In this document: in pieces, positions 13,838 through 30,151 of the stretch
Layout: every line of letters starts with the position of its first letter
How positions within the stretch are numbered: the stretch's first letter is position 1
Origin: Desulfatitalea alkaliphila
GTDB lineage: Bacteria; Desulfobacterota; Desulfobacteria; Desulfobacterales; Desulfosarcinaceae
Assembly: GCF_022968795.1 (NCBI RefSeq)
Contig: NZ_JALJRB010000004.1
Coordinates: 62,001-126,000 of the forward strand
Reading direction: 5' to 3'
Length of the DNA: 64,000 nt
Made by a program: the position numbers and the translations under genes
Notes under the pieces: generated by a model
Database searches by the model: none
Told to the model about the DNA's origin: nothing
Seen by the model: only the letters and a program-made list of their open reading frames with translations

Positions 13838-15928
13838 GTGTCGCAATCCACTCCGGATGATATTCGCCTGCTCTTGGAGAATGCCGAGGTACAACACGCC
13901 ACATCGCCGATCAGCGAATCGGTCAAGGAACGGTTGGCATACCGCCCACCGACTTGCGGGGTTTTTCAGAACGACTGGACCGGGGTCGAGCCGGCGCAAG
14001 CGTATCGTTTCGAGATCGATGTGCAAGCGCGTCGGGAACTGCCGGACATTATCGGCAATCCGGTGCAGCGCATCGTCCCGCCAGACCAGGCCGTTGAAGA
14101 TGGGCGGAAGGCATTTCAACGGGCACGCCGCATCGGCATCGTTTTTTCCGGAGGGCCCGCCCCCGGTGGGCACAATGTGATTGCAGGGCTTTACGATGCC
14201 GCCAAGCGGGCCAACCCCGACAGTCGCATTTTCGGTTTTCTGGTGGGGCCCGACGGCATCATCGAAGGGGATTATGTGGAATTGGACGACGCCCTGGTGG
14301 ATGCATACCGCAACCTGGGGGGCTTCACCATGATCAGAACCGGCCGCACCAAGATCGATACGCCCAAAAAGATGGCATTGGCCAAGGATACGATTTTGGG
14401 ATTGGGTCTGGATGCCGTGGTGGTGGTGGGCGGTGACGATTCCAATACCAATGCCGCTTTTCTGGCCCAGGAGCTGTTTGAAAGCAAGGTTCAGATCATC
14501 GGGGTGCCCAAGACCATCGACGGCGACATCCAGGTGCGCGATGCCGACGGCAAGATATTGTGCGCCATGTCCTTCGGTTTTCACTCCGCGGCCCGTGCCT
14601 TTGCCCAGGCGATCAGCAACTTGAGCAACGACAGCAGCTCGGATATCAAGTATTGGCATATTTGCCGGGTCATGGGGCGCGTGGCCAGCCATTTGGCGCT
14701 GGAGGTGGCCTTGCAGACCCACGCCAACCTGACCTTCATCGGTGAGGATTTGGCCGATTACGTCGACCGGCAACGTTTGGAAAAGGCACGGCAGGCGGGT
14801 ACCGTGGACTACACCGCCTACGGCATGACCTTGCGTCACCTGTCGCGGGTTATCTGCGATGCCATCGTCCAACGGGCGGCGGTGGGAAAAAACTATGGTA
14901 TATTGGTGATACCCGAGGGGTTGTTGGAATTCATCAACGAAATCGAGGTGTTCATTGTCAAGCTGAACACGATCATCGCAAATTACAACTTCACCCACGA
15001 CCGGGATTTCCATGCCAGTTTCCCCCTGCTCTCCCAGAAACTGGATTATTTAGGGCGTTTGGTGCGGGATCCGGCGCCGGGATTGGCACCCAACATCTGG
15101 AACGCGCGGGACGACGAACTTTTCAACGACCTGCCCGACTTTTTTCAGGAGGGCTTGTTGACCGAACGGGACAGCCACGGCAATTTTCAGTTCTCCCAGA
15201 TTCCCACGGAAAAGTTGGTCTTGGATCTGGTCAAGGATTATTTGCGGATTTTGCGGGACCAGGGAAAATACAGGATCGGGATTACCCATGATTACTATCG
15301 GAAAATACTGCACCGCGCCGGCCTGGACCCCGATTATTACGGCCCGGTGTTGTTCGCAAACTACGACCAGCCCGGGCATTTGCTGCTCAAAGAGAACATT
15401 ATTTCGTTGCGCACGCTGAAGAATGCCTTGGTGTCGGCCGATATTCTGGATGCGGAAGAGGCGGTGCCGGAAGCCATCGAAAAAATCTACAAGGCCTCCG
15501 TGCCCCAGTTCAAAACGCAAACCCATTTTTACGGGTATGACGGTCGGGGAACCGATCCCACCTGGTTCGACTGCACCTATACCTATAACTTGGGGTTGAC
15601 GGTTTTCAGCCTGATTGCCAATGGTGCCACCGGCCAGATGGCCACCATACGCAATTTGGAGCATGGGTTCGACCAGTGGGAGCCGTTGGGCGTGCCCATC
15701 GCCCCTTTGATGCGGCTCGAAGAGCGCAAGGGGCGGCTGACGCTGGTACTGGAAAAGAGTCTGGTGGATATCAAATCGCCGGCCTTCAAAGTGGTAAAGG
15801 CCTTCCGCGAGCCGTGGCTGGCAGCCGTGCCCGGGGGCGATCAATTTCGAAGGCCGGGTCCCATCCTGCTCCAAAGCGACAAGGAGGAGGATCGGCCCAT
15901 CACCCTGCGGCTCAACGCCATTGCGTGA
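13838..15928 (+). CDS. pfp: Pyrophosphate-dependent 6-phosphofructokinase (PFP), long form
   Basis: The 696-residue protein is a PFK-family enzyme that reversibly phosphorylates fructose 6-phosphate using pyrophosphate. FSGGPAPGGHNVIAG is the phosphate-binding loop. GGDDS (about residues 198-202) and PKTIDGD (about 224-230) carry the Asp and Gly/Asp pattern of PPi-dependent enzymes rather than ATP-PFK. The start is a GTG at 13838 preceded by AAAGGGGGAGG; no better ATG exists in frame. It is longer than common bacterial PFPs (about 400-560 residues), with an extended C-terminal half. PPi dependence is predicted from motifs only. It is monocistronic as far as can be seen. Confidence 0.92.
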   Translation: MSQSTPDDIRLLLENAEVQHATSPISESVKERLAYRPPTCGVFQNDWTGVEPAQAYRFEIDVQARRELPDIIGNPVQRIVPPDQAVEDGRKAFQRARRIGIVFSGGPAPGGHNVIAGLYDAAKRANPDSRIFGFLVGPDGIIEGDYVELDDALVDAYRNLGGFTMIRTGRTKIDTPKKMALAKDTILGLGLDAVVVVGGDDSNTNAAFLAQELFESKVQIIGVPKTIDGDIQVRDADGKILCAMSFGFHSAARAFAQAISNLSNDSSSDIKYWHICRVMGRVASHLALEVALQTHANLTFIGEDLADYVDRQRLEKARQAGTVDYTAYGMTLRHLSRVICDAIVQRAAVGKNYGILVIPEGLLEFINEIEVFIVKLNTIIANYNFTHDRDFHASFPLLSQKLDYLGRLVRDPAPGLAPNIWNARDDELFNDLPDFFQEGLLTERDSHGNFQFSQIPTEKLVLDLVKDYLRILRDQGKYRIGITHDYYRKILHRAGLDPDYYGPVLFANYDQPGHLLLKENIISLRTLKNALVSADILDAEEAVPEAIEKIYKASVPQFKTQTHFYGYDGRGTDPTWFDCTYTYNLGLTVFSLIANGATGQMATIRNLEHGFDQWEPLGVPIAPLMRLEERKGRLTLVLEKSLVDIKSPAFKVVKAFREPWLAAVPGGDQFRRPGPILLQSDKEEDRPITLRLNAIA

Positions 15929-16101
15929 CAGCCGGCGGTGCAACGGGATGGCGGTTTTCAACGCACGAGTGTCGGAACCCGTTAAGGGACACGAAGGGCT
16001 GTGGTCGAAAGCGATTGTCGATAACAGGTGATTCTTGGTGTTTGAAGGAAAACGGCCGGGTATTGAACAGGAGCGTTGGTGATGCTCCGACGGATGGCAC
16101 G

Positions 16102-17190
16102 ATGAGCTTTACAGAAGCGATTTTCAGAGTGGTGGACGTTTCCGGTTGCCCTTTTTACCAGGAGGGCGATGAGTTCAAGATCACCGGCAATGCCTTGCTG
16201 CTGGAACATAACAAGGGCAGTAAGTTCATATCGACGGTGATTATCGACATGCCCCCCAAGCGGCGGGAGTGCCGCACCCTGATCACGGCGTTGACCCGAA
16301 TCCTGGTGGAGCATGAGCGGGTGGACCGCATTCCGGACCGGGTGGTCTCCTGCGGCAAATGCCAAGGAGAGATCAAGCTGGAGCACAAAAAAGGCGTGGC
16401 AATCGCCCTGGTTGAGGACATCAAGCAGCACGGCACCGACGTGGCCACGATCGCCGCCATTCTCAGCAATTTTTCCATTTTCAAGACGTTGGATGAGAGG
16501 AGCTTGCGCGATTTTGTCTCTTTGTTGCGTCTGAAAAAGTACCGTCCGGGCGAGACCATCATCAGCAAAGGCGATCTGGGCAAGAATCTTTATATCATCC
16601 TTTCCGGAGTGGTCAATGTGATGGATCAGGACGGCATCAGTATCACCAAGCTGCGCAACGGAGAGGTGTTCGGCGAGATGAGCCTGATCAGCGGCGATCC
16701 CGTCGGCGCCACCATCAAGGTGGTCGAGCCGACCACGGTGCTGTTCATCAAGGGGCAGGATTTCCTGAAGGTACTCAATCGCTTCCCATCACTGCAAATG
16801 TATTTCGCCCGGCTGCTGTCAAGGCGTTTGGCCAGGTCCAATGTGATGATCTCTAAGGAGTTTTCATCGGGCATGACCGGTACGCTGTCGCAAATGCCGC
16901 CGGTGGAGCTGTTTCAAACACTCAATTACAATCAGAAAACCGGTACGTTGCGGCTCAATTTACCCAAGGGGCCCGCCACCATCTTGTTCCGCGGTGGTGC
17001 CGTCGTCGAGGCCGCTTACGGCCGCCAAATCGACAAGGAAGCTTTCTTCGGCATTTTGAGCGAAAAGCAGGGCCGCTTTCAATTCGTGCCCGGTCTGACG
17101 GAGCAGCAGATGGCCTTGCCGGAACTGGGCATGTTCATGGAATTGCTGATGGAAGGGCTGCGCAAGTTGGACGAAGCGGTCCAAGCATAA
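16102..17190 (+). CDS. TIGR04076-like / cyclic-nucleotide-binding / DUF4388 (PATAN) regulator
   Basis: A three-part, 362-residue cytoplasmic protein. Residues 1-100 resemble small TIGR04076-type domains (VVDVSGCPFYQEGDEFKITG) and include a CxxC pair (SCGKC). Residues 125-255 form a cNMP-binding fold (RPGETIISKGD ... GEVFGEMSLISGDP). Residues 260-360 form a DUF4388/PATAN domain beginning GMTGTLSQMPPVELFQTL. The family knowledge is that PATAN domains act as interaction modules in phosphorelay outputs, some linked to type IV pili. Whether cAMP or another ligand binds is unknown; the phosphate-binding cassette GEMSLISGDPVGATI lacks the usual Arg. The start is uncertain, and an in-frame TTG at 16063 is possible. 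It heads the chemosensory-like cluster. Confidence 0.8.
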   Translation: MSFTEAIFRVVDVSGCPFYQEGDEFKITGNALLLEHNKGSKFISTVIIDMPPKRRECRTLITALTRILVEHERVDRIPDRVVSCGKCQGEIKLEHKKGVAIALVEDIKQHGTDVATIAAILSNFSIFKTLDERSLRDFVSLLRLKKYRPGETIISKGDLGKNLYIILSGVVNVMDQDGISITKLRNGEVFGEMSLISGDPVGATIKVVEPTTVLFIKGQDFLKVLNRFPSLQMYFARLLSRRLARSNVMISKEFSSGMTGTLSQMPPVELFQTLNYNQKTGTLRLNLPKGPATILFRGGAVVEAAYGRQIDKEAFFGILSEKQGRFQFVPGLTEQQMALPELGMFMELLMEGLRKLDEAVQA

Positions 17191-17493: not shown

Positions 17494-18735
17494 ATGATTC
17501 TGTTTTGCGAAGAGTGCGGCACCCGGCTCAATGTCGATCCATCCCGGATTCGGGATGGCGATTGCCGCGTTGAGTGCCATGTGTGTCACGAAGTGCTCAC
17601 GGTGACCGGCGGTCGCAAACCCGGCGGCAAGACGGCCCAGGCCAATTTAATCAGCGGCGGCAATCCACCCCGGACGGCGGGCAAACCGTTGTCGATTCTG
17701 GTGGTGGACGATTCCAAAATGATTCGCAGGGTTTTACGCGAAATCATCGAATCGGACAGTCGCAAAAAGGTGGTGGGCGAGGCCGAGGATGGTCGTAAGG
17801 CTTTGGAATTGCTTGGTTCCTTGAAGCCCGATGTGGTGACCCTGGACATCAATATGCCGGTCATGGATGGATTGACGACCCTCAAGCACATCATGATTCA
17901 GCATCCCGTACCCACGGTGATGATCAGTGCCTTGACACAGGAAGGGGCCACGGAAACCTTCGAGTCCCTCAAGTATGGGGCCATCGATTTCCTACCCAAG
18001 CCATCCCGCGCCCGGGGGGGCGATCTGCAGGCGCAGCGCTTGGAGATCATTCGCAAGATCGAAATGGCGGCGGCTGTCCAGATGGAATCGGTCCGCTATC
18101 TGCGGCGCCCATCACAGGAAAAGGCGCCGTTGTCGGACCCCTCCTCGCCCTTTCGATCCCTGGTGGTTATGGGCGTGGCGGAGGGGGGATACGGCGCCCT
18201 GCTCAACGTCATCCCGCGTCTCAACCCCCGCTTGCCGGCGGCCTATGTGGCGGTGATGCACCAGCCGGCACAACACCTGGACGGTTTTGCCCGCTACTTG
18301 GACCAATGCAGCCGATTGACCATCGAGCGCGCGGCGGACGGGGTGGCGATCCACCCGGGAAGATGCTATTTGGCGGCGGCCGGCGAACCCTTGACCTTTA
18401 TACGGGAGGTCGGGCAGATTCGATTCAAGCGGTACCACGAGGCGAATTGCCGGCCGGACGGCGCCATCGACCGAGTTATGGGCGACGCGGCCCGTTTGAT
18501 GGGCACCAACACCACCGGTATCATTTTAACCGGTGCCGGCGATGACGGTTTGGCGGGCTTGGGGACTGTGATCGGCGGCGGTGGGACCGTTTTCATTCAA
18601 GATCCCGGCAGCTGCCTGTTCAAGGAAACACCCATGAAGGCTGCCGATCAATACGATATGGCCAACCTGGTGAGCGACAAACGGATGGCCGGCGCCATCA
18701 ACGCCCATTTGACGGCCCTTGGCAATGGGGGTTAG
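17494..18735 (+). CDS. Zinc-ribbon / REC / CheB-like protein with catalytic Ser replaced
   Basis: 413 residues in three parts. Residues 1-45 are a zinc-ribbon of the MJ0042 type (CEEC...CHVC). Residues 68-190 form an intact receiver domain (VVDDS, phosphoacceptor in VTLDINMPVMDG, Lys in LPKPS). From 220 there is a CheB methylesterase-like domain. The catalytic loop that reads GASTGG in CheB is GVAEGG here, so the nucleophile Ser is Ala229. The equivalents of the catalytic His (H256, VMHQP) and Asp (D351, GAGDDG) remain. It is therefore unlikely to hydrolyse receptor methyl esters and may act as a phosphorylation-controlled binding protein. I chose the ATG at 17494 because the zinc-ribbon starts there. 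It precedes cheW. Confidence 0.85.
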   Translation: MILFCEECGTRLNVDPSRIRDGDCRVECHVCHEVLTVTGGRKPGGKTAQANLISGGNPPRTAGKPLSILVVDDSKMIRRVLREIIESDSRKKVVGEAEDGRKALELLGSLKPDVVTLDINMPVMDGLTTLKHIMIQHPVPTVMISALTQEGATETFESLKYGAIDFLPKPSRARGGDLQAQRLEIIRKIEMAAAVQMESVRYLRRPSQEKAPLSDPSSPFRSLVVMGVAEGGYGALLNVIPRLNPRLPAAYVAVMHQPAQHLDGFARYLDQCSRLTIERAADGVAIHPGRCYLAAAGEPLTFIREVGQIRFKRYHEANCRPDGAIDRVMGDAARLMGTNTTGIILTGAGDDGLAGLGTVIGGGGTVFIQDPGSCLFKETPMKAADQYDMANLVSDKRMAGAINAHLTALGNGG

Positions 18736-18800
18736 TGCCCGTTCGGCAATGGACCGGCAGCGGCCCGTTGTTGCGCGGCGACGGACGAGGAGAGCGATGC

Positions 18801-19355
18801 ATGAACGAGTTGAATGAAATCCCGGTCATTTCCGATGAGGATCTGCTCGATATGGATGACGGGGCTTTCGCGGTCCAGGAAGAGCAGGACATGGTGCAGA
18901 TGGTGGGCTTTTTCCTCGCCGAAGCACTTTTCGGGACGGACATCCTGGCGGTTCAAGAGATTTTAAAGGAGGTCGCCATTACCACCGTTCCGGACACACC
19001 CGATTTCATCGGTGGCGTGATCAACCTGCGGGGGCGTATCGTGCCGGTCTTTGATTTGCGGCGCCGCCTGGACTTGGCGGCCTCCGCCGGTGAGGGGGCG
19101 GAGGCATGGACCCTCATCCTGAATATCGGCGGACGGGTCACTGGGTTTCTCGTGGATCGTGTCACCCGCGTACTGAAAGTGCCGGCCGCCGCCATCGAGC
19201 CGCCGGCCGATACCATCCCCGGGGAGGTGAAGCGGGAATACGTCGCCGGGTTGGCGCCGGTGGCCGATCAGACCATGGTCATTCTCGACTTCAACCGGGT
19301 TTTGGCTGTGGACGAAATCAAGCGTTTGGCGGAACAGAAGCGGCAACAGGGGTAA
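18801..19355 (+). CDS. cheW: CheW-type chemosensory coupling protein
   Basis: This 184-residue protein has a short acidic N-terminal extension (about 30 residues) followed by a complete CheW domain: MVGFFLAEALFGTDILAVQEIL, TPDFIGGVINLRGRIVPVFDLRRRL and GFLVDRVTRVLKVP. CheW normally couples chemoreceptors to CheA. The ATG at 18801 follows GACGAGGAGAGCG. The GTG-type ORF start at 18735 overlaps the previous stop and adds unrelated residues. It lies about 60 bp before cheY. No receptor gene is present in the window, so its receptor must be encoded elsewhere or be non-canonical. Confidence 0.95.
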   Translation: MNELNEIPVISDEDLLDMDDGAFAVQEEQDMVQMVGFFLAEALFGTDILAVQEILKEVAITTVPDTPDFIGGVINLRGRIVPVFDLRRRLDLAASAGEGAEAWTLILNIGGRVTGFLVDRVTRVLKVPAAAIEPPADTIPGEVKREYVAGLAPVADQTMVILDFNRVLAVDEIKRLAEQKRQQG

Positions 19356-19418
19356 CCAAAGACAGAATACCGTTGACCGCCGTGGACCTGCGGCAATCAT
19401 CCAGCAGGAATTATCAAA

Positions 19419-19772
19419 ATGGGAAAAAGCATTTTAATCGTCGACGATTCTTCCATCATGCGCAAAATGATCCGGCAGACACTGATGGATGAAAACCATA
19501 TCGTGGCCGGTGAAGCCAAGAGCGGCAAGGAGGCGATCGAACTGTACATCGTCCTTAAGCCCGATGTCGTCACCATGGACATCACCATGCGCGAAATGGA
19601 TGGTTTCGAAGCGGCTCGCGAGATTCGCGCCATCGATCCGGAGGCACACATCATTTTCTTATCCAACCTGGATGAAGACAAATACAGCGAGGATGTCAAA
19701 CGGCTTGGCGCCTTGGGATACGTCAACAAACACAATGCCCGGGCCATCATCGAGCTGATCGGGAAACTGTAA
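19419..19772 (+). CDS. cheY: CheY-like response regulator
   Basis: A stand-alone receiver domain of 117 residues. The acidic pair is in LIVDDSSIM, the phosphoacceptor Asp in VTMDITMREMDG, the switch Ser in IIFLSNLDED and the Lys in YVNKHNA. AGGA lies 8 bases before the ATG. It ends 11 bases before cheA, so the two are translationally close and this is the likely direct phosphate acceptor of that kinase. Its output target is not evident from sequence. The SNLDEDKYSEDV stretch after the switch Ser is longer and more acidic than in flagellar CheY. Confidence 0.93.
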   Translation: MGKSILIVDDSSIMRKMIRQTLMDENHIVAGEAKSGKEAIELYIVLKPDVVTMDITMREMDGFEAAREIRAIDPEAHIIFLSNLDEDKYSEDVKRLGALGYVNKHNARAIIELIGKL

Positions 19773-19783
19773 AGGAGAACGGC

Positions 19784-22700
19784 ATGGCCGACCAGTCCCT
19801 GTTGCAGGATTTCATTGAAGAGACCGGCGAGCATCTGGAGGGCGCGGAGCGCAACCTGTTGCGTTTGGAACAGGAGCCGGGCAACGGGCAGGTGCTCAAC
19901 GAGGTGTTTCGAGCGATTCACACCATCAAGGGATCTGCGGAATATTTGGGGTTGGTGCGGATTTCGGAGCTGACGCATCGGCTGGAGAGTTTTCTGGACC
20001 TGCTGCGGCGCGGAGAACGGGTGCTGGACGGCGCGGGGATCGATCTGCTGATCGGCGCCAATGATCGGTTGGGTCGTTTGGTGGACGATTTGACGCGCCA
20101 TCATGCCGAGCGGACCGGCATCGACGATTTGGTGGCACGCATCGACGGTTTTTGCGGCGCTGAGGTGCCGGTGACGGCCGAGCAGGGCGCCGGTGACACG
20201 GAAGGTGAGGTGGACAGCGACCCATTCGGGGACGAGTACGATGAGGAGTTGTTCGGTATCTTCGCCGATCAGCTCAAGGAGGGCTTGTCGGCCCTGGTGG
20301 CCGAAAGCGGTTCGCTGGCCGCTGCGTCTGCGCCGGCGGAGGTACTGGGTCGTTACGCGGACCGGTTGCAGACGCTGCGGGCGTCGGCCAATTACATGGG
20401 GTACGACAAGCTTCGGCAGGTGTATGATCAGTGGGCCGGTGCGCTGACGGCGACCGAAGAGCGGTTGTCCGCGGGCCGATCGGTGGATTGGCCGGCTTTT
20501 GAACAGGAAGTGACCCGGCACTACATGGATCGTGTGCGCGGGATGTTCGCCAAGGTGCCGGCCCTGGCCGCCCTGGACGTGATCCCGCCGGCTGCGGCAG
20601 CGCCGGCCACCGATGCCGATGGATCGGAGGGGGCTGCCTCTGATCTTTGGGCCTTGGACGATATTGGATTGGAATTGGCGCCGGCGGATGCGCAGGCCGT
20701 TGGGGAGGATGACGCCGCGGCCGGCCCAGAACTGGCCTTGTTTTCCGACGGAGCCTTGCTCGAGGAGGACACCGAGCCGACGCCGGAAGACAGCGGGGGG
20801 ATCGGGTTGGACCAAACGAATGGTTTGGACCGGTCCCTGTTGCAGGATTTCATTGAAGAGACCGGCGAGCATCTGGAGGGCGCGGAGCGCAACCTGTTGC
20901 GTTTGGAACAGGAGCCGGGCAACGGGCAGGTGCTCAACGAGGTGTTTCGAGCGATTCACACCATCAAGGGATCTGCGGAATATTTGGGGTTGGTGCGGAT
21001 TTCGGAGCTGACGCATCGGCTGGAGAGTTTTCTGGACCTGCTGCGGCGCGGAGAACGGGTGCTGGACGGCGCGGGGATCGATCTGCTGATCGGCGCCAAT
21101 GATCGGTTGGGTCGTTTGGTGGACGATTTGACGCGCCATCATGCCGAGCGGACCGGCATCGACGATTTGGTGGCACGCATCGACGGTTTTTGCGGCGCTG
21201 AGGTGCCGGTGACGGCCGAGCAGGGCGCCGGTGACACGGAAGGTGAGGTGGACAGCGACCCATTCGGGGACGAGTACGATGAGGAGTTGTTCGGTATCTT
21301 CGCCGATCAGCTCAAGGAGGGCTTGTCGGCCCTGGTGGCCGAAAGCGGTTCGCTGGCCGCTGCGTCTGCGCCGGCGGAGGTACTGGGTCGTTACGCGGAC
21401 CGGTTGCAGACGCTGCGGGCGTCGGCCAATTACATGGGGTACGACAAGCTTCGGCAGGTGTATGATCAGTGGGCCGGTGCGCTGACGGCGACCGAAGAGC
21501 GGTTGTCCGCGGGCCGATCGGTGGATTGGCCGGCTTTTGAACAGGAAGTGACCCGGCACTACATGGATCGTGTGCGCGGGATGTTCGCCAAGGTGCCGGC
21601 CCTGGCCGCCCTGGACGTGATCCCGCCGGCCGAGGAAGCGCCGGCTACCGCAGCGCCGTCCGATGCCGGGACGGCTGACACCGGTACGGAAGACACCCCG
21701 CTGGTGGACGGCATTTTTTCGGAGGAGCGTGCGGCTTCGGAGGAGCGTGCGGCCGAAGCCACGGAAGTGTCGGCGGACGGCGGGTTGCTCAACGATTTTA
21801 TCGAAGAGGCCACCGAGCATCTGGAGGCCGTAGAGGGCAACCTGTTGGGGCTGGCCCACCAGTCCGATCCTCGCGAGAGCCTCAATGATCTGTTTCGAGC
21901 GGTTCACACCATAAAAGGTGCATCGGAGTATCTGGGCATGGCCCGCATCGCCGATTTGGCCCACAAGCTGGAAAGCCTGCTGGACCTTTTGCGGCGCGGG
22001 GAGCGAACCATCGATGCCGCCGTCGGCGATCTGTTGATGGCCGGCCATGACCGGATGGGGGCATTGGTCGGCGATTTGATGCACCATGGCCAAGAACAGT
22101 CACCCATTGATGATCTGGTGGCGGGTATCGACAGTTGGTTGGCATCAACGCCGGTGGAAGCCCCTCCCTGCGAACCGCCGGCGGTCGCAGCACAGAGCGA
22201 GGTGTTCACCGAGCCACTCCCGGAAGCCCCTTCCGCGGTATCGCCACCGGAGCAAGCGGCTGTCTACGAGGAACCCCATGACGCGCCGTTGTTCGCCATA
22301 TTCATGGCACAGCTCAACGAAGGTCTATCCGCCATGGCGGGTGCCACCGCGCAATGGGGCGCGGGAGCATCCGCAGGGCCGGTCATTGCTCTATCCCGGG
22401 AATGGCTTGCTCGGCTGCGCGCCGCCGCCAACTATATGGGGTATGATGACCTCATGGCGATTTATGATGCGTGGCACGAGGATCTGCAGAATTGGGAGCA
22501 GGGGGTTCCCGGGGCCGTGTCGCAGTCGGCAATGGCGGACTGGGACCGCCTGACACACTCCCGCGCGGCGCAGGTTCGCGCTTATTTCAGCGCTTCGCCC
22601 GAAACCGCTGCGTCGCCGGAGGTGTTGGAAGCACCCGGTACGGTTGTTACGGAAGTCGACGATGCAATCCAGGCGGCGTCGGTGCAAACGCCTGCACCCG

Positions 22701-24436
22701 AATCGTTGCCGTCACTGGAAGCCGAGGAACCGCCGGCGACACTGGCCCCCTTTGCGGTGGAAGACCCGGGCGATGAAGAACAGGCGTTGCTGGCACTGCT
22801 GGAAAACGCTTTCGATGCCAAGATCGCCGTGGACGACAACGAGGATGGGGATCGTTTGGCCGATATGGATGTGGCCAAGGAGTTGTTGTCCGAGGTGGAG
22901 GGGGTGTCGGACCATTTGCCACCGGTTGCGCGGTCGTTTGCCGCGACACCGCCACAGGCCGATCGCACCCCATCCGATGGAATCGACCTGGAATCGCTTC
23001 TGTTTTCCGATGGCCAAGGCAGCCGGATTCCGCGCAAACCCTTGACCCCCATGCCATTGGCCGAAATGCTGGGCACCGCCGAGATGGCCGCCTCATCTTC
23101 GCTGGAAGGGGACCGCCCCACCGGCGGTTACATGGCGGGGCGCCGCCGCAGCGATCGGTTGCATGATCGACTGGCCAGACAGAGCATTCGGGTGGATGCC
23201 GCCAAGATCGACACATTGATGAACCAGGTGGGGGAGTTGGTCGTCAACAGGGCCGGTTTCAACCAGCTTTTCATGGAGATGCGTGAGATGCAGCTGGATC
23301 TCAAGCAGTCCAAAAGGTTGAACAACGCTGAGTTGAAAATCATCCAATCGCTGACCAATCGCGTCAACGAGGCCACGGTCGCCCTGGGGCGTGTCACATC
23401 GGAGCTGCAGGAAAATGTCATGAAGGTGCGCATGTTGCCCATTGCACAGTTGTTCAGCAGATATCCGCGATTGGTGCACGACCTGGTGCGCAACACGGAC
23501 AAAAAGGTGTCTTTGGAGATTCAAGGTGAAGAGACCGAGCTGGACCGCATGGTGATCGAACAGATTGCCGATCCGTTGGTGCATTTGATTCGCAATGCCG
23601 TCGACCATGGTATCGAACCGGTGTCCGAACGGACGCGCAAAGGCAAGCCGGAAACCGGTACACTGCGTCTGGAGGCGTATTACGAGGGCAACTACGTTGT
23701 GCTGGAGGCCGGTGACGACGGGCGCGGCATCGATGCCGAACAGATCAAGGCGCGTGCCTTGACCAAAGGATTCGTCTCTTCCGCCGAGTTGGCGGAGATG
23801 AGTGACGATCAGGTTCGCGCCCTGATCATGCAACCGGGCTTCTCCACCGCCGATGCGGTGACCCACACCTCGGGTCGCGGGGTCGGTATGGATGTGGTCA
23901 AGGACAATATCGAAAAACTCAACGGCACCATCGAAATCATCAGCACCCCCGGCCACAGCACAGTGTTCCGGGTCCGCATCCCCTTGACCCTGGCCATCAT
24001 TCAGGCCCTGCTGGTCCGGGTGGCCGGGTCGACCTTCACCATCCCGCTGTCCGCCGTGGATGAGACGCTGCGCATCCACCAGAACGAAATCTCGACCCTG
24101 GAAGGCATGGAGATCTACTATTTACGGGAAACCACGCTGCCGCTGATCCGCGTCGCCCGGGTGTTTAAAATGGCCGAAACGGCTGCGGATACCCGGGAAC
24201 TGTTCGTCGTGGTGGTCAATGTCGGTTCGCGACAGGTGGGGCTGGTGGTGGATGAGTTGCGTGGACGTCAGGAGGTGGTGATCAAGCCGCTTGAGGACTA
24301 TTTGCAGGAGCGAAGTGGTTTTTCGGGCGCCACCATTTTGGGCGACGGCAGTATTTCCCTGATTTTGGATGTGGCGGAAGTGATCCATCTGGCCATCGCC
24401 CAACATACCCGTAGAACGAAAGCGGTTGCCTTATGA
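19784..24436 (+). CDS. cheA: Giant CheA histidine kinase with three Hpt and three degenerate Hpt domains
   Basis: The 1550-residue kinase contains three repeated modules. Each has an Hpt domain with the phosphorylatable His (IHTIKGSAEYLG; His46, His392, His708) followed by an Hpt-like domain in which the His motif is degenerate (QTLRASANYMGY, Gln196 and Gln542; Ala876 in module 3). A Pro/Ala/Glu-rich linker (about 930-1110) leads to the P3 dimerisation helix (from about 1130, KIDTLMNQVGELVVNRAG), the P4 ATPase (HLIRNAVDHGIE, N-box Asn1271; GRGVGMDVV) and a P5 CheW-like domain (about 1415-1545). There is no C-terminal receiver. Modules 1 and 2 are identical in DNA (19795-20592 and 20833-21630); module 3 is diverged. 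AAAGGAG precedes the ATG. Multi-Hpt CheAs of the ChpA type control type IV pili, so a similar role is plausible but unproven. Confidence 0.95.
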   Translation: MADQSLLQDFIEETGEHLEGAERNLLRLEQEPGNGQVLNEVFRAIHTIKGSAEYLGLVRISELTHRLESFLDLLRRGERVLDGAGIDLLIGANDRLGRLVDDLTRHHAERTGIDDLVARIDGFCGAEVPVTAEQGAGDTEGEVDSDPFGDEYDEELFGIFADQLKEGLSALVAESGSLAAASAPAEVLGRYADRLQTLRASANYMGYDKLRQVYDQWAGALTATEERLSAGRSVDWPAFEQEVTRHYMDRVRGMFAKVPALAALDVIPPAAAAPATDADGSEGAASDLWALDDIGLELAPADAQAVGEDDAAAGPELALFSDGALLEEDTEPTPEDSGGIGLDQTNGLDRSLLQDFIEETGEHLEGAERNLLRLEQEPGNGQVLNEVFRAIHTIKGSAEYLGLVRISELTHRLESFLDLLRRGERVLDGAGIDLLIGANDRLGRLVDDLTRHHAERTGIDDLVARIDGFCGAEVPVTAEQGAGDTEGEVDSDPFGDEYDEELFGIFADQLKEGLSALVAESGSLAAASAPAEVLGRYADRLQTLRASANYMGYDKLRQVYDQWAGALTATEERLSAGRSVDWPAFEQEVTRHYMDRVRGMFAKVPALAALDVIPPAEEAPATAAPSDAGTADTGTEDTPLVDGIFSEERAASEERAAEATEVSADGGLLNDFIEEATEHLEAVEGNLLGLAHQSDPRESLNDLFRAVHTIKGASEYLGMARIADLAHKLESLLDLLRRGERTIDAAVGDLLMAGHDRMGALVGDLMHHGQEQSPIDDLVAGIDSWLASTPVEAPPCEPPAVAAQSEVFTEPLPEAPSAVSPPEQAAVYEEPHDAPLFAIFMAQLNEGLSAMAGATAQWGAGASAGPVIALSREWLARLRAAANYMGYDDLMAIYDAWHEDLQNWEQGVPGAVSQSAMADWDRLTHSRAAQVRAYFSASPETAASPEVLEAPGTVVTEVDDAIQAASVQTPAPESLPSLEAEEPPATLAPFAVEDPGDEEQALLALLENAFDAKIAVDDNEDGDRLADMDVAKELLSEVEGVSDHLPPVARSFAATPPQADRTPSDGIDLESLLFSDGQGSRIPRKPLTPMPLAEMLGTAEMAASSSLEGDRPTGGYMAGRRRSDRLHDRLARQSIRVDAAKIDTLMNQVGELVVNRAGFNQLFMEMREMQLDLKQSKRLNNAELKIIQSLTNRVNEATVALGRVTSELQENVMKVRMLPIAQLFSRYPRLVHDLVRNTDKKVSLEIQGEETELDRMVIEQIADPLVHLIRNAVDHGIEPVSERTRKGKPETGTLRLEAYYEGNYVVLEAGDDGRGIDAEQIKARALTKGFVSSAELAEMSDDQVRALIMQPGFSTADAVTHTSGRGVGMDVVKDNIEKLNGTIEIISTPGHSTVFRVRIPLTLAIIQALLVRVAGSTFTIPLSAVDETLRIHQNEISTLEGMEIYYLRETTLPLIRVARVFKMAETAADTRELFVVVVNVGSRQVGLVVDELRGRQEVVIKPLEDYLQERSGFSGATILGDGSISLILDVAEVIHLAIAQHTRRTKAVAL
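19795..20592 (+). repeat. Perfect 798-bp tandem duplication, copy 1 (within cheA)
   Basis: Line-by-line comparison shows no mismatch between 19795-20592 and 20833-21630, an offset of 1038 bases (346 codons, frame preserved). Each copy encodes one Hpt plus one degenerate Hpt domain. The two copies are separated by 240 bp of unique Ala/Asp-rich linker. Confidence 0.93.
20833..21630 (+). repeat. Perfect 798-bp tandem duplication, copy 2 (within cheA)
   Basis: Second identical copy of the Hpt module. Sequence identity stops abruptly after GATCCCGCCGGC at both ends (TGCGGCAG against CGAGGAAG). The absence of even synonymous differences points to a very recent duplication or ongoing gene conversion. 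Confidence 0.93.
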
Positions 24437-25872
24437 TGAACTCCGTGAAGCGAACGGTCGAAGAAGAGCGCTCCGGCGGATTCGCCGGCACCCTGCGCAA
24501 TATCCAATTGACCGATATCATACAGATGTGCTGCCTGGCTGGTGCCAGTCTCTGCATTCGTGTGCGTCAGGAGGATGAACAGGGCACCATATATGTGCGT
24601 GATGGGGAGTTGGTTCATGCCGAATACGGTTCGGTCACCGGCGTGGATGCCTTTTTCACCATTCTTGGATGGCAAAGCGGTCGGTTTGAAACCTTGGATG
24701 CCCCCTGGCAGAGCAGCGCCACGATCAAGGAACCTTATCAATTTTTACTGATGGAGGCCGCGCGACGGGCCGATGAGAAAGCGCAGGTTGACCGGACCGT
24801 TGACGCCCAAGCGGCGACGGCCGACGCAAAAGCCCCGATCCGGGTCCTGATTGTGGACGATTCGGCCATCATGTCCAAGATTTTGGGCAGCATGTTGGAA
24901 GCCGACGCCGGCATTCAGGTGGTGGGCAATGCCAAGAACGGGGAAGAGGCCTTGGCCATGATGAAGCGACTCGAACCCGATCTGATCACCATGGATGTCA
25001 ACATGCCGGTGATGGACGGCAGCACGGCGTTGAAACATATCATGATCGAAAGCCCCTGCCCGGTCCTGATCATGAGCAACCTGGCCTCCTCGTCCTACGC
25101 CACGATTCTATCGTTCCTGAACCTCGGAGCGGTGGATTTTATGAGCAAGCCGGTGAAGAACCGCAACATCCTGCTCCAGCAACAACGCATCGTCGAAAGG
25201 GTCCATCTGGCCGTGGACACTCGGGTGGACCGGTTTCGGCGGTTGCGTATGCCGCGGTTGCGCCCCGAGGAGAAGATCCGTGTGGATGATACGGTGCCCG
25301 GCGACACCTTGCTGGTGACCCTTTCAGGGGTGGGCGGGTACTTGGAAATGGTCAACACCCTCACCTCCCTGCCGCGCCAGGCGCGGGCCGTCGTGGTTTC
25401 GTTGCAATCGGTTCCCCCTCAATTCGCGCCGACTTTGTCCGAATACCTCGACGCGCGCTCCCCGTACGATGTCAAGGTGTTGGCCGCCGGTTCGCCGCTG
25501 TGCGCCGGGCGTTGCTATGTGGGCACCACCGGGCAGGGATGGACGGTGCGGGATTTAGGCGGTCGCAGGATGTTGCAACCGCTTCTGGGCCCCCGACCGG
25601 AAGGCGATCATGACACCACCTTGGATCTCTTTTTGAGCAAGGCGGCCGAGATCTATGGACGGCGGACCGTCGTGTGCCTGCTGTCCGGCGGACCACCGGA
25701 CGCCCTTGCAGGCCTGCGGGCGGTTCGTGATGCCGGGGGAAGGGTGTTGTCGCCCAAAGTCGAAAAGGCGATTTTGCCGGCCACAATGGCGCCGGCGATG
25801 GCCCACGATCTGATCACGGAGCTGTTCGACCCCAAGGATCTGGCCCACGTGCTGTCGCGCCATTGTACTTGA
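24433..25872 (+). CDS. DUF4388 (PATAN) / REC / degenerate CheB-like protein
   Basis: 479 residues. Residues 12-110 form a DUF4388/PATAN domain (GGFAGTLRNIQLTDIIQM ... GTIYVRDGELVHAEYG). Residues 135-260 form an intact receiver (IVDDSAIM, ITMDVNMPVMDG, MSKPVK). The remainder is CheB-like but strongly eroded. The nucleophile loop reads TLSGVGG, with Gly299 where the catalytic Ser should be and a Ser one position earlier. The His site reads QSVPP (Ser in place of His). An Asp (D423, GGPPDA) remains. The start codon overlaps the cheA stop (ATGA), so synthesis is coupled to the kinase. A phosphorylation-switched adaptor is more likely than an esterase. Confidence 0.85.
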   Translation: MMNSVKRTVEEERSGGFAGTLRNIQLTDIIQMCCLAGASLCIRVRQEDEQGTIYVRDGELVHAEYGSVTGVDAFFTILGWQSGRFETLDAPWQSSATIKEPYQFLLMEAARRADEKAQVDRTVDAQAATADAKAPIRVLIVDDSAIMSKILGSMLEADAGIQVVGNAKNGEEALAMMKRLEPDLITMDVNMPVMDGSTALKHIMIESPCPVLIMSNLASSSYATILSFLNLGAVDFMSKPVKNRNILLQQQRIVERVHLAVDTRVDRFRRLRMPRLRPEEKIRVDDTVPGDTLLVTLSGVGGYLEMVNTLTSLPRQARAVVVSLQSVPPQFAPTLSEYLDARSPYDVKVLAAGSPLCAGRCYVGTTGQGWTVRDLGGRRMLQPLLGPRPEGDHDTTLDLFLSKAAEIYGRRTVVCLLSGGPPDALAGLRAVRDAGGRVLSPKVEKAILPATMAPAMAHDLITELFDPKDLAHVLSRHCT

Positions 25873-25909
25873 AGGGACGGCGTTCAATCCAAACAGAGAG
25901 TCTGATGCC

Positions 25910-26947
25910 ATGCAAGAAGCGATCAAAGTTTTAGTTGTCGACGATGCCCTGTTCATGCGCAAGGCCATCACCGAGATCCTGCAATCGGATCCCGGCCTGA
26001 ATGTGGTCGGCACCGCCCGTGACGGCCTCGACGGCCTGGAAAAGATCAAGGCCCTTGCACCCCATGTGATCACCCTGGACATCGATATGCCACGGATGGA
26101 CGGATTGGAAGCCATCCGCCACATCATGATCGAATCGCCCGTGCCGGTGGTGGTGCTCAGCTCCCTTTTTAGCGACGGCGCGGTGACTTTCGAAGCGCTG
26201 CGCCTGGGGGTGGTCGATTTCGTGCCCAAGCCATCGGGCGGTATGTCCGATGATATGGACAAGGCCCGCCGCCAGATCATCGACCGCGTCAAGATCGCCA
26301 GCGGCGTCAATTTCGATAACATTCGCCGGGTGCGCATGCAGACCCAGCCGGACGGTTCGGCGTGGGATGAAAGCAACCCGCCGCCCGTCGCCCGGAACCT
26401 GGTGGCCTTGGGCACCAGTTTGACCGGCCCCAACACCGTCATCCGCCTGTTGACCCGTTTGGCACCCACCTTGCCGGCCGCCGTTGTGGTGGTCCAGGAA
26501 ATCGCACCCCAAATATTGCCGGCCTTTGCCAAGCAGTTCGACCAGCACGTACCCTGGTGCATCGAACCTGCGGAGGATGGTCGTGTTTTGCGTCAGGGCT
26601 GTTGTTACATCGGTTCCAATCGCAGCGCTTTGCGCATCGGGAAAAACGAAGAGGGAATACCCTGCATACGTTTGGGAACCGCGGTGGATCGGCCTCTGGA
26701 CCAGTTTTTCAGCTCGGCGGCCGATGTGTTCGCCCAACATGCCATCGGTGTTTTGTTGACCGGCATCGGCGACGACGGTGCGGTCGGCTTCGCCCATATC
26801 CGCTCGCGGGGCGGCCACACCATCGCCCAGGATGCCAGTTGCTGCGTCTACCCCAACTTGACCGAACACGCCATTGCCCAAGGCACGGTCAATACCATAG
26901 TGGACGAAGTCCAATTGCCCGGCACCATTGAAACCTGTTTGTCCTAA
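25910..26947 (+). CDS. REC / CheB-like protein with catalytic His replaced
   Basis: 345 residues with the normal CheB layout. The receiver is intact at residues 5-125 (VVDDALFM, ITLDIDMPRMDG, VPKPSGG). A methylesterase-like domain begins at about 160. The nucleophile Ser is kept (Ser170, GTSLTGP) and so is the Asp (D289, GIGDDG), but the His position of VQHMP reads VQEIAP, with Glu197. This is the least eroded of the three CheB-like proteins of the cluster and might retain some activity with an altered triad. It lies 38 bp after the DUF4388-REC-CheB gene. No cheR accompanies it. Confidence 0.87.
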   Translation: MQEAIKVLVVDDALFMRKAITEILQSDPGLNVVGTARDGLDGLEKIKALAPHVITLDIDMPRMDGLEAIRHIMIESPVPVVVLSSLFSDGAVTFEALRLGVVDFVPKPSGGMSDDMDKARRQIIDRVKIASGVNFDNIRRVRMQTQPDGSAWDESNPPPVARNLVALGTSLTGPNTVIRLLTRLAPTLPAAVVVVQEIAPQILPAFAKQFDQHVPWCIEPAEDGRVLRQGCCYIGSNRSALRIGKNEEGIPCIRLGTAVDRPLDQFFSSAADVFAQHAIGVLLTGIGDDGAVGFAHIRSRGGHTIAQDASCCVYPNLTEHAIAQGTVNTIVDEVQLPGTIETCLS

Positions 26948-26972
26948 CCCGATTTTCAAGGGGGAGCTGTCC

Positions 26973-27938
26973 ATGATTGTCGTGTGCCCCAATTGCCAAA
27001 CCCAATACGACCTGGAAGACCGACTCGTTCAGGAGCCTCGGTTCATTGCCCGCTGTACCAAATGCCGGCATCTTTTCTCCGCTTATCGCCCGGTGCGGGT
27101 CGAAGAGATTCGTTTTCTGGATCTGGCGGCCACCAAGCGGCGGACAGACATGGCCAACATCGTGGCGGTCAGCAATCAAAAGGGGGGCGTGGCCAAAACC
27201 TCCACCTGCCTCAACCTCGGGTTCTCTCTGGCACGCGAGGGCAAAAGGGTGCTGTTGGTCGATTTCGATGTTCAGGCCAACCTGACCATCTCCCTGGGGT
27301 ACAAAGAGACCGTCTCCTTTTACGAAGTGCTCAGCGGTGGCGCCGAGAGTCTGGAAGAGTCCCTGGTGCAAACAAAGTACCAGAATTTATGGCTTTTTCC
27401 TTCAAATAAGAACATGGTCCTGCTCAACAAGAAGTATTTCGGCGCCCCCAACTTCGAATTCGTTCTCAAGGATCGGTTGTTGCCCATCAAGGAGCGGTTC
27501 GACTACATCGTCATCGATACGCCGCCTTCCATTGAGTTTCTGACCCTCAATGCGCTGACCACCGCCCATCAGGTGGTGATTCCCAGCCAGTGCGACTACC
27601 TGTCCACCCACGGCATCGACCAGATTTTGAAGTTGATCGGACTGATCAAGGCCAAAACCAATCCGGCCATCACCGCCAAGGTGTTGATCACCATGTTCGA
27701 GAAAGAGAACACGGCTTCCAAGATGATCTGTGCCAAACTCAACCGGATGTATGCGGACAGGACCTTCGAGACGATCATTGAACTGGATCCGCGTGTCCGG
27801 GAGGCCCAGATTATGGGTGCCCCGGTGTTGGCGTACAACGCTCAGAGCAAGGCCGGTTTGCAATATGGGCAACTGGCAAAGGAGATGATCAGGGCGTCCG
27901 ATCCGTCACAGGAAGCGGCCCGACCCATTGCGCGATGA
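26973..27938 (+). CDS. ParA/MinD-family ATPase with N-terminal zinc-ribbon
   Basis: 321 residues. Residues 1-40 form an MJ0042-type zinc-ribbon (MIVVCPNCQTQYDL ... CTKCRHLF), the same kind of domain as in the first CheB-like protein. From about 55 a ParA ATPase follows with the deviant Walker A KGGVAKTSTCLNLG, Walker B-like DYIVIDTPPS and VLLVDFDVQANLT. Family members position cargo, and some (ParC, PpfA) place chemosensory arrays at cell poles or mid-cell. No parB-like gene is next to it. The ATG at 26973 follows AAGGGGGAGC and precedes the zinc-ribbon exactly. Placing this system's CheA/CheW assembly is the most economical role, but it is inferred from context. Confidence 0.9.
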   Translation: MIVVCPNCQTQYDLEDRLVQEPRFIARCTKCRHLFSAYRPVRVEEIRFLDLAATKRRTDMANIVAVSNQKGGVAKTSTCLNLGFSLAREGKRVLLVDFDVQANLTISLGYKETVSFYEVLSGGAESLEESLVQTKYQNLWLFPSNKNMVLLNKKYFGAPNFEFVLKDRLLPIKERFDYIVIDTPPSIEFLTLNALTTAHQVVIPSQCDYLSTHGIDQILKLIGLIKAKTNPAITAKVLITMFEKENTASKMICAKLNRMYADRTFETIIELDPRVREAQIMGAPVLAYNAQSKAGLQYGQLAKEMIRASDPSQEAARPIAR

Positions 27939-28567
27939 AAAAAAGATCCGGCTACAGCCTGCAGCGTACCATGATCATCTATTTTTTGTTGATCGGCTTT
28001 GCCGCCGCCATGGTCGGCGTGGAGTTCCTGGTCGATTTCCATCGCGGTGCGCTCAAAACCGAGATTTGGGACAACATCCGGCTTTATGGCCTGGAAGAGC
28101 AGCACCAGGAGGCCATCTTCGCCCCCATCGACCGCATGCGCAGCAAAGCATTGCTGATGGTGGTGATCATTCTGATGGTCAGCCTGATCGTGCTGATCAT
28201 GTTCATCAAGTACATCACCGAACCATTGCAGCACATGATCGATTTGGCCCGTAAAATTTCCGGGGGCGATTTGAGCCGGACCATCCGCATCCATTCCGAC
28301 AACGAGTTGGCGGAACTGGGCGGGGTCATCAATGAAATGGCCAGTAATCTGCAAGAGATCATTCTGTTGTCCCAGGGGACCTGTGCCAACGGGCGGGAAC
28401 TGACCCGCCAGGCCCGGCAAGAACTGACCATGGCATCGGCGCAAGAGGATCGTTTGCGGCGACTCACCGAGTTGATCGACCGGCTGGAGCAGGAATTGGC
28501 CTTGCTGGAGGAAGTGATCACCTATTTTCGATTTTACAGCGTGGAGGGCCGGCATGCCGCTGGATAG
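27935..28567 (+). CDS. HAMP-domain membrane protein without a methyl-accepting domain
   Basis: 210 residues. A first membrane segment lies at about 11-33 and a short periplasmic part of about 40 residues follows. The second membrane segment is at about 72-93 (LLMVVIILMVSLIVLIMFI). A HAMP domain is at about 94-145 (TEPLQHMIDLARKISGGD...NELAELGGVINEM) and a C-terminal coiled coil at about 160-195. The long hairpin of chemoreceptors (EISxI...NLLALNAAIEAARAGE) is absent, as are kinase and cyclase domains. It overlaps the ParA stop by 4 bases. It may be a minimal sensor or an anchor for the chemosensory complex. Confidence 0.85.
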   Translation: MKKRSGYSLQRTMIIYFLLIGFAAAMVGVEFLVDFHRGALKTEIWDNIRLYGLEEQHQEAIFAPIDRMRSKALLMVVIILMVSLIVLIMFIKYITEPLQHMIDLARKISGGDLSRTIRIHSDNELAELGGVINEMASNLQEIILLSQGTCANGRELTRQARQELTMASAQEDRLRRLTELIDRLEQELALLEEVITYFRFYSVEGRHAAG

Positions 28568-29315
28568 TTGGTCGGCCTTTCCCGTGGGCATTCTCATTGC
28601 CACGGTCTCCTCCACCGTGGGCATCGGCGGCGGCATCTTCTGGATGCCGTTTCTGATGTTGGTGCTGCACATCAGCCCGGGCACTGCGGTGCTCACCAGT
28701 CTGCTCATCCAAACCGCCGGCATGGGTTCGGGCACCATCGCCTACTGGCGGAAAAGCAGCATCGATGGCCGACTGGTGCTGCTGCTGCTGGTTTTCACGC
28801 TGCCCGGTATCGCGGTCGGCGCCTGGTTGACAAGAAACATGTCGCCGCCCCACATCCAGTTGTTGCTCGGCCTGCTCACCCTGGTCACGGCCCTGGTGTT
28901 CGTGTCGGTGCATCAAGCTTATGACGATAGCGGGAAAGCACGGGCCGAGCCGAAACGCGCCGTGCGTTACGGCTGGGCGGTGTCCGGCATGGCGGTGGCC
29001 AGCGGCATGCTCAGTGTGAGTATCGGAGAATGGATCGTGCCCTTGATGCGCCACAAGCTGGGGATGCGCATGGCCGTGGCCGTCGCCACCAGTATCGCCA
29101 CGATCTTGGGAACGTGCATTATCGGGGTTGGCTTTCACTTCGCCATGGGAGCGCGGGTGGATGGCGCCCTGCTGATGTGGGCGGTGCCCGGGGTGTTGAT
29201 CGGCGGCCAGATCGGACCCAAAATCGCGTTACGGATCAATGAACGGGTGTTGAAGGAGATCTTTATCTTTTTACTGACCCTGATCGGCATCCATCTGATC
29301 TACAACTCTTATTGA
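28554..29315 (+). CDS. TauE/SafE-family sulfite/sulfonate exporter-like permease
   Basis: This 253-residue integral membrane protein has about eight hydrophobic segments and the TauE/SafE N-terminal signature (STVGIGGGIFWMPFLMLVL) with its paired repeat later (ATILGTCIIGVGFH, GVLIGGQIGPKIA). Family members export sulfite, sulfoacetate or other small anions. The start codon lies 14 bases inside the HAMP gene and follows GGAGGG, so translation may be coupled. The next three genes encode an SsuABC/TauABC-type uptake system, which fits organosulfur metabolism, although the substrate is not shown by the sequence. Confidence 0.85.
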   Translation: MPLDSWSAFPVGILIATVSSTVGIGGGIFWMPFLMLVLHISPGTAVLTSLLIQTAGMGSGTIAYWRKSSIDGRLVLLLLVFTLPGIAVGAWLTRNMSPPHIQLLLGLLTLVTALVFVSVHQAYDDSGKARAEPKRAVRYGWAVSGMAVASGMLSVSIGEWIVPLMRHKLGMRMAVAVATSIATILGTCIIGVGFHFAMGARVDGALLMWAVPGVLIGGQIGPKIALRINERVLKEIFIFLLTLIGIHLIYNSY

Positions 29316-29325
29316 TGTTGCCACC

Positions 29326-30141
29326 ATGGATGATGACGGTAAACCGACATTGAAGGAGACCCCGTTGTACGAACGGGAAACGGGCAACCGCTTTGTACGC
29401 TCGGGCTTGCTTTCGTTTTTGTCGATCGTGGTGATATGGGAATTGTTGGCGCGGGCCAGCGGTTGGAGCGTGCATGTTTTTCCGGACCCTTGGGCGGTCA
29501 TCCTCAGCTTCATCGAGTTGTTGCGCGACGGCACGCTGGTGCGGCACACGGTCGCCAGCCTTTACCGGGTGACCGTCGGCTTCTATTTGGCGGTGCTGCT
29601 CGGCGTGCCTTTGGGGATTTGTCTCGGGCGCAATCTCACCGCTCGTTCGTTTCTCAATCCGGTGATCCATTTTCTGCGCCCGATTTCGCCCCTGGCGTGG
29701 ATCCCACTGGCCATGCTCTGGTTCGGCATCGGCGATCCACCCGCTATTTTTCTGATTTTCCTTGCCAGCTTTTTTCCCATGGTGGTGGGCACCACCATCG
29801 CGGTGCAAAACATCAATCCCACCTTTTTCCAGGTGGCCGCCAACTTCCGTTTCAGTCGCCGGGAAACTTTGACGCGGCTGATTTTGCCCGCCATTATGCC
29901 CGAGGTGATCACCGCGCTACGCATGACGGTGACCATTGCCTGGCTGGTGGTGGTGGCCGCCGAAATGATCGCCGTGCAGTCCGGTTTGGGTTATCTGATT
30001 CTGGACGCCCGCAATGCCTTGCGAATGGATTTTGTGATGAACGGGATGATCGTCATCGGTTTGATCGGCTTGATGTTGGACGGCATCATGAAACGCCTGG
30101 GCCAAGTTGAGTCTTCCCAATGGGGGCGCCACGAAAGGTGA
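29326..30141 (+). CDS. ABC transporter permease, SsuC/TauC/NrtB type
   Basis: 271 residues with about six membrane segments and the BPD_transp_1 domain. The EAA-like coupling loop sits around ANFRFSRRETLTRLILPAIMPEVIT, and PISPLAWIPLAMLWFGIGDPP is characteristic of the nitrate/sulfonate/taurine subfamily. It begins 10 bases after the TauE-like gene. The ATPase and the solute-binding protein follow directly. The substrate class (sulfonate, nitrate, bicarbonate or a pyrimidine precursor) cannot be decided from the permease. Confidence 0.9.
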   Translation: MDDDGKPTLKETPLYERETGNRFVRSGLLSFLSIVVIWELLARASGWSVHVFPDPWAVILSFIELLRDGTLVRHTVASLYRVTVGFYLAVLLGVPLGICLGRNLTARSFLNPVIHFLRPISPLAWIPLAMLWFGIGDPPAIFLIFLASFFPMVVGTTIAVQNINPTFFQVAANFRFSRRETLTRLILPAIMPEVITALRMTVTIAWLVVVAAEMIAVQSGLGYLILDARNALRMDFVMNGMIVIGLIGLMLDGIMKRLGQVESSQWGRHER

Positions 30142-30151
30142 CGGGGATGGT

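Follow-up and report, generated by a model that had tools for sequence, protein, structure and literature searches.

CheB is the textbook response regulator with an enzyme effector, and methylation the textbook mechanism of chemosensory adaptation; a 64-kb stretch of the Desulfatitalea alkaliphila genome (contig NZ_JALJRB010000004.1, positions 62,001 to 126,000; hereafter the window, meaning the whole stretch) raises the question of what CheB-type proteins do when the enzyme is broken. One chemosensory gene cluster in the window encodes three such proteins, here termed B1, B2 and B3, and none of them has an intact Ser-His-Asp triad. We analysed the window together with its own genome (98 contigs, 99.7% complete). 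The reading that we favour, and hold with moderate confidence, is that the cluster encodes a chemosensory module which works without methylation and contains three CheB pseudoenzymes gated by phosphorylation. The three proteins are:

17494..18735, + strand: B1, a weak zinc ribbon, a receiver (REC) domain and a CheB-like domain (Pfam Response_reg, and CheB_methylest at E 3e-33)
24433..25872, + strand: B2, a DUF4388 (PATAN) domain, a REC domain and a CheB-like domain (Pfam Response_reg, and CheB_methylest at E 4e-19)
25910..26947, + strand: B3, a REC domain and a CheB-like domain (Pfam Response_reg, and CheB_methylest at E 4e-39)

The initial annotation of the window had reported three CheB-like proteins, each with a differently broken triad, and had proposed aligning their C-terminal domains with CheB. 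The open reading frames and the residues that it named were all correct: the triad positions hold Ala229, His256 and Asp351 in B1; Gly299, Ser326 and Asp423 in B2; and Ser170, Glu197 and Asp289 in B3. Alignment to solved CheBs, pairwise for B1 and B3 and by profile for B2, gave the same assignment of triad residues. The model that AlphaFold gives for B3 (mean predicted local distance difference test score, pLDDT, 89) superposes on full-length CheB 1a2o with template modelling (TM) scores of 0.88/0.87, and that of B1 (mean pLDDT 81) matches the same structure with Z 40.1, at 2.5 Å over 337 residues; for B2 the fold is supported by profile matches, which found solved CheBs with a best E of 3e-24. 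In the NCBIfam model NF001965, with which these three proteins only were scored, B1, B2 and B3 reach 260.2, 193.2 and 272.0 bits, all below the cut-off of 293. A search for another Ser or His that might restore the site gave one candidate His, in B1: this residue, His261, is 79% conserved and lies on the helix that follows, five residues past the position of the triad His, and it is no rescue for B1 of the window because what that protein lacks is the Ser, its His being present. Since the defining catalytic feature of CheB fails in all three, we do not class them as methylesterases.

Orthologues sit in matching gene clusters of a group of sulfate reducers, across the Desulfobacterales and some neighbours. 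B2 was searched for in 60 genomes, comprising its own and relatives, and matched at E <1e-80 in 26 of them, its own included; some match at 1e-20 is present in 47, with paralogues or ordinary CheBs behind the weaker hits. When named genomes were scanned for the B3 domain, 49 loci were found, mostly labelled Desulfobacterales, Desulfobacteraceae or deltaproteobacteria, with a few Desulfobulbaceae, Desulfocapsa or Desulfobulbus and the remainder labelled just Proteobacteria, Gammaproteobacteria or bacterium; among the sources are the named strains Desulfonema magnum and Desulfobulbus rhabdoformis DSM 8777. At E up to 1e-40, B3 was found in 25 of 146 genomes sampled in the order (own genome included, and a partial match in G144) and in 10 of 297 sampled in the phylum (own genome included), where the matches at 1e-41 to 1e-53 are candidate B3s. 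In five loci of one genus of the same family (L054, L056, L057, L059 and L060, from G029, G023, G017, G028 and G022 respectively) B1 and B2 are present in a cluster without B3. Locus L103 has a second set of CheA, B2, B3 and ParA, inverted, beside the first. Orthologues with matching losses across the order rule out that the broken triads are peculiar to a single genome or come from sequencing errors.

After removal of duplicates, triads could be read in 39 B1, 50 B2 and 53 B3 sequences, some of which end at contig ends. An intact triad is present in 4/39 B1, 0/50 B2 and 0/53 B3. B1 is the most varied, with S-H-D in 4 sequences, A-H-D in 12, S-Y-D in 8, A-Y-D in 8 and rarer forms in the others. 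B2 has Gly at the Ser position in 50/50, and most of its members have lost all three triad residues; Asp423, which the initial annotation had read as kept, is correctly placed, and its reading as a meaningful remnant is ruled out, Asp being found in 3/50 orthologues and Gly in 35/50. In B3 the His position is occupied by Glu (48), Asp (4) or Ser (1), and the Ser position by Thr (24), Ser (20) or Asn (9), so that in the nine with Asn no serine nucleophile is possible there. For comparison, 27 ordinary CheB loci, hand-picked from the B2 search matches together with the own genome's four and read without a motif filter, have S-H-D in all 27, representing 26 distinct proteins.

The receivers of the orthologues are intact, as had been annotated for the window. 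Counting rows with a letter at the position concerned, the phospho-Asp is kept in 37/37 B1, 49/49 B2 and 53/53 B3, and the receiver Lys in 38/38, 50/50 and 53/53; 36/36 B1 and 53/53 B3 have DD as their acidic pair, and in B2 the first residue of the pair is Asp in 41/49 and Glu in 8/49. The Thr/Ser position is Ser in 37/37 B1, 48/49 B2 and 53/53 B3.

The CheB-like domains themselves are constrained. In a close pair of loci, L043 and L044, the ratio of nonsynonymous to synonymous substitution rates (dN/dS) over these domains is, roughly, 0.033 for B1, 0.083 for B2 and 0.044 for B3. Conservation is higher in the former active-site loops, picked by hand from the alignment, than elsewhere in the domain: 0.85 versus 0.64 in B3, 0.67 versus 0.53 in B1 and 0.59 versus 0.45 in B2, beside 0.85 versus 0.66 in 15 ordinary CheBs matching a stricter motif. 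Circular shifts reached this excess in 0/189 cases for B3, 6/198 for B1, 1/194 for B2 and 2/192 for the ordinary CheBs. Low dN/dS, conserved loops and intact receivers together indicate that the three genes are under purifying selection and are not decaying. Fold and constraint are thus kept and catalytic residues lost, a pattern expected of pseudoenzymes.

These data bear on two other explanations. One is relaxed decay: once methylation was lost the esterase became useless, and the domains are drifting. The wide variation of B1 at the Ser and His positions, and the divergence of B2, the greatest of the three, would suit it; yet the full domain make-up is kept across the order, one genus without B3 apart, dN/dS is low and the B3 cleft is conserved like that of ordinary CheB. 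Decay was thus already disfavoured, and we consider it very improbable. The other, raised in the initial annotation, is that the proteins are phosphate sinks that merely drain phosphoryl groups from a multi-Hpt CheA, their CheB domains being remnants. Intact receivers are what a sink needs, and here three CheB-type regulators and a CheY stand beside a single CheA with three Hpt domains. A sink has no need of an effector domain, however, whereas selection on the CheB domains is purifying and their former active-site loops are additionally conserved, those of B3 as much as in ordinary CheBs; B1 and B2, moreover, have additional N-terminal domains. A pure sink therefore fits poorly and is, we think, unlikely. 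We return to phospho-gated pseudoenzymes as the favoured reading.

How did three such proteins arise? A tree was built from 64 of the 142 CheB-like rows (24/39 B1, 20/50 B2, 20/53 B3) and 24 ordinary CheBs, with the triad columns removed; it is unrooted and comes from a quick search with Shimodaira-Hasegawa-like approximate likelihood ratio (SH-aLRT) support only, and the ordinary CheBs in it were chosen by a motif filter that leans towards intact triads. Each of B1, B2 and B3 comes out as a single group (SH-aLRT 99, 100 and 100), apart from the 24 ordinary CheBs (89). They also share a Cys, present in 38/39 B1, 42/50 B2 and 52/53 B3 and in 0/24 ordinary CheBs, which have Ala, Val or Ile there. 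The separate groups and the common derived Cys point to one ancestral CheB-like protein, whereas the family-specific replacements, the four B1s with S-H-D and the minimum number of changes on the tree (12 at the Ser, 9 at the His and 2 at the Asp position) point to later, repeated breakdown of the triad. The simplest account is probably that one diverged CheB was duplicated and that its triad then broke differently in each line. The loss had been annotated as independent in three paralogues; this holds for the later breakdown of the triad, which was repeated, and not for the paralogues' starting point, which was probably a single ancestor.

The shared Cys brings in a third explanation, that the proteins are neofunctionalised enzymes, with new chemistry in the cleft (from the Cys, or from a Glu/Asp pair in B3) or with weak esterase activity in B1 where S-H-D is kept. 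The distribution of the Cys, common in the three families and absent from the 24 ordinary CheBs, is in its favour, as are Glu or Asp at the His position in 52/53 B3s and the constraint on the cleft loops. Opposed to it are the variable nucleophile position in B1 and B3, the lack of all three residues in most B2s and the placing of the B3 Cys (Cys232) within a predicted strand. We give this explanation little weight. A second Cys is common in all groups, and the two might form a redox or structural pair.

If the three proteins are pseudoenzymes, does their pathway use methylation at all? CheR was found in the cluster in 0/65 distinct loci, many of which end at contig ends; the like search did recover CheR in an ordinary locus, L073, which was set aside from the counts. 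The initial annotation had taken CheR to be absent, and this is true of the cluster and untrue of the genome, which encodes four CheRs and seven CheB domains, four of the latter lying outside the cluster with intact triads. Absence of CheR from the organism is thereby ruled out, and the four CheRs and four ordinary CheBs suggest that methylation is present in the cell and probably serves other pathways.

The receptors that go with the cluster point the same way. A receptor gene lies within the cluster in 27 of the 37 distinct loci that have at least 1.5 kb upstream of CheW; none was found in the cluster in the loci of the window's genus (L042-L048, L071 and L072). CheA and CheW are thus encoded together in the window, and the receptor, which most loci have in the cluster, is encoded elsewhere in the own genome, where a receptor of dCache-HAMP-MCPsignal architecture with the same tip sequence is found at C67:155617-156072. 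The locus of this cognate receptor (L165:6796-10750, on contig C67 of the own genome, G000) adjoins a small HAMP protein and has a PilZ gene nearby; a PilZ gene also lies inside the cluster of Desulfobulbus rhabdoformis (L120:14325-14774). Methylation sites were sought with the strict consensus, in the own genome's 9 receptor loci, 30 of 92 matches in seven genomes and the cluster receptors; 4 of the 39 loci, lacking the receptor-tip pattern, were dropped, and receptors were sorted by tip signature into cognate and other. The 32 cognate receptors have on average 0.22 motifs each, no more than chance gives (0.32 when shuffled), the 28 others 2.21 (0.17 when shuffled), with at least one motif in 26 of these 28.

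On the evidence of the orthologue families, the receptors without the consensus, the finding of no CheR in the clusters, purifying selection and the retention of the cleft loops, the repurposing proposed in the initial annotation is supported; its interpretation as a whole stands in part, since wholly independent loss and genome-wide absence of CheR do not hold. B1, B2 and B3 are probably binding proteins switched by phosphorylation, rather than enzymes.

Several observations weigh against this reading. Four B1 orthologues keep S-H-D and might be active as enzymes, and the shared Cys might have taken on a new role in catalysis or redox chemistry. Ratios from the window compared with L042 are higher (dN/dS 0.196 for B2, 0.129 for B3), and all such ratios are rough, dS being about 1 or above in the compared pairs. 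The alignments behind both structural models are shallow (18 and 21 rows), and AlphaFold may be biased towards the closed arrangement known from CheB. Because many loci are cut by contig ends, a CheR just beyond a locus could be missed, and the genome's four CheRs and four ordinary CheBs could act in trans. At least one methylation motif occurs in 6/32 cognate receptors; the test applies a sequence rule and does not assay methylation itself, and the p value for the difference in motif counts between cognate and other receptors (Mann-Whitney, 8e-10) is too small because receptors are related to each other.

The remainder of the cluster provides the setting in which the three proteins would work. 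In order on the + strand it encodes a cNMP-DUF4388 protein, B1, CheW, CheY, CheA, B2, B3, a ParA with a zinc ribbon and a small HAMP protein; the HAMP gene runs into the beginning of a TauE/SafE gene, and genes of an ATP-binding cassette (ABC) transporter then follow:

15676..17190, + strand: cNMP-binding and DUF4388 (PATAN) protein, start codon uncertain (Pfam cNMP_binding 4.9e-21, DUF4388 7.2e-21)
18735..19355, + strand: CheW (Pfam CheW 1.5e-30)
19419..19772, + strand: single-domain CheY (Pfam Response_reg 3.2e-24)
19784..24436, + strand: CheA with three Hpt domains (Pfam Hpt three times, H-kinase_dim, HATPase_c, CheW)
26928..27938, + strand: MJ0042-type zinc ribbon followed by a ParA/MinD-like ATPase (Pfam AAA_31 8.5e-51, Zn_ribbon_4 1.5e-11)
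27935..28567, + strand: small HAMP protein with no receptor signalling domain, its transmembrane helices assigned by eye (Pfam HAMP 6.9e-12)
28554..29315, + strand: TauE/SafE-type permease (Pfam TauE 1.6e-42)
29326..30141, + strand: ABC permease, nitrate/sulfonate type (family profile matches)
30107..30949, + strand: ABC ATPase (domain scan, from 30143 on)
30939..31985, + strand: SsuA/NMT1-like substrate-binding protein (family profile matches)

The cNMP-binding/DUF4388 gene is the first of the cluster in the loci of the genus Desulfatitalea, and some relatives have a positional orthologue. Within the CheA gene a Hpt-bearing segment is present as a tandem copy, positions 19796-20592 and 20834-21630 being identical along their 797 nt and repeating at a period of 1038 nt; a duplication of very recent date, gene conversion or an effect of assembly may account for this. 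An Rfam search gave one tRNA and no other match.

Downstream neighbours were counted in the 40 distinct loci that have 4.5 kb or more of sequence downstream. Genes for an ABC permease and an ABC ATPase lie downstream, on the same strand, in 31 of them, ParA is found in 33, the HAMP protein in 19 and TauE in 17. The nine loci without both ABC genes downstream are L062, L066, L080, L084, L091, L095, L097, L098 and L103; in L095 the ABC genes are present on the opposite strand. The best NCBIfam match of the substrate-binding protein is the SsuA family, below its cut-off. We take the ABC transporter as a putative part of the module, and its conserved linkage suggests that it is an input or a target.

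Beyond triad loss and constraint, every step of the mechanism that we propose is what we infer. CheW and a Cache-HAMP receptor, whose gene in this genome lies outside the cluster, would drive the multi-Hpt CheA, which, given the intact receivers and the shared cluster, would phosphorylate CheY and the three REC domains. Because the models of B1 and B3 superpose on CheB over both domains, the unphosphorylated receiver would cover the cleft, and phosphorylation would lift it off, as in ordinary CheB. The opened cleft would then bind a partner without hydrolysing it; that the cleft is conserved argues for such a partner. Stoichiometric binding of B1 and B3 to the receptor or to CheA may replace methylation feedback, and B2 may carry output through its PATAN domain, a guess made because a PATAN regulator has been proposed to bind the cyanobacterial pilus motor. 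The SsuA/TauA-like transporter might serve as input or target, and ParA, by analogy, would place the complex in the cell. A bolder version is that the cluster defines a distinct methylation-free class of chemosensory system in the Desulfobacterota, in which covalent adaptation has given way to stoichiometric adaptation: B1 and B3 would clamp the receptor or CheA, B2 would carry the output, and uptake or binding by the dedicated SsuA/TauA-type ABC transporter would be the signal. This we offer tentatively, as a possibility about which we are doubtful.

Three CheB-type regulators without an intact triad, with receptors without the consensus, in many genomes of one order, constitute a natural test both of roles for the CheB fold besides demethylation and of how a pathway adapts without methylation. 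In the open-licence literature of PubMed Central, outside which most subscription papers lie, no account of the cluster or of conserved triad-less CheB families was recognised by title or the start of the abstract, a weak sign of novelty.

Parts of the system have known counterparts. ParA ATPases of the ParC/PpfA type place chemosensory arrays, and a ParA-like ATPase is likewise found in this che cluster, here joined to an MJ0042 zinc ribbon. CheAs with several Hpt domains are, according to PMC10782961, about 93% in the ACF (alternative cellular functions) and Tfp (type IV pili) classes, with a C-terminal receiver in more than 90%; the CheA of the cluster resembles them in its several Hpt domains but has no receiver domain that Pfam could find, at its C-terminus or elsewhere. 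PATAN-REC regulators such as PixE act on cyanobacterial type IV pili, and binding of a PATAN regulator to the pilus motor is presented as a hypothesis with a cited interaction study in PMC7690835; B2 likewise joins PATAN (DUF4388) to a receiver, but adds a CheB-like domain, and no pilus gene was found among the cluster proteins scanned. Helicobacter pylori, according to PMC11634455, has no CheR/CheB methylation cycle and no CheB homologue, and has three CheV proteins; the system described here resembles it in doing without that cycle, but has kept three CheB-fold proteins without the triad. The closest counterpart is the methylesterase/deamidase CheB itself, of Salmonella (1a2o, 1chd) and Pectobacterium (6ymz), with which the proteins share the REC-CheB architecture, the full-length fold and an intact receiver. 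They differ from it in their broken triads, in scoring below the NCBIfam CheB cut-offs, in having no CheR found in the cluster and in going with receptors without the methylation consensus: proteins called CheB by family search need not be methylesterases.

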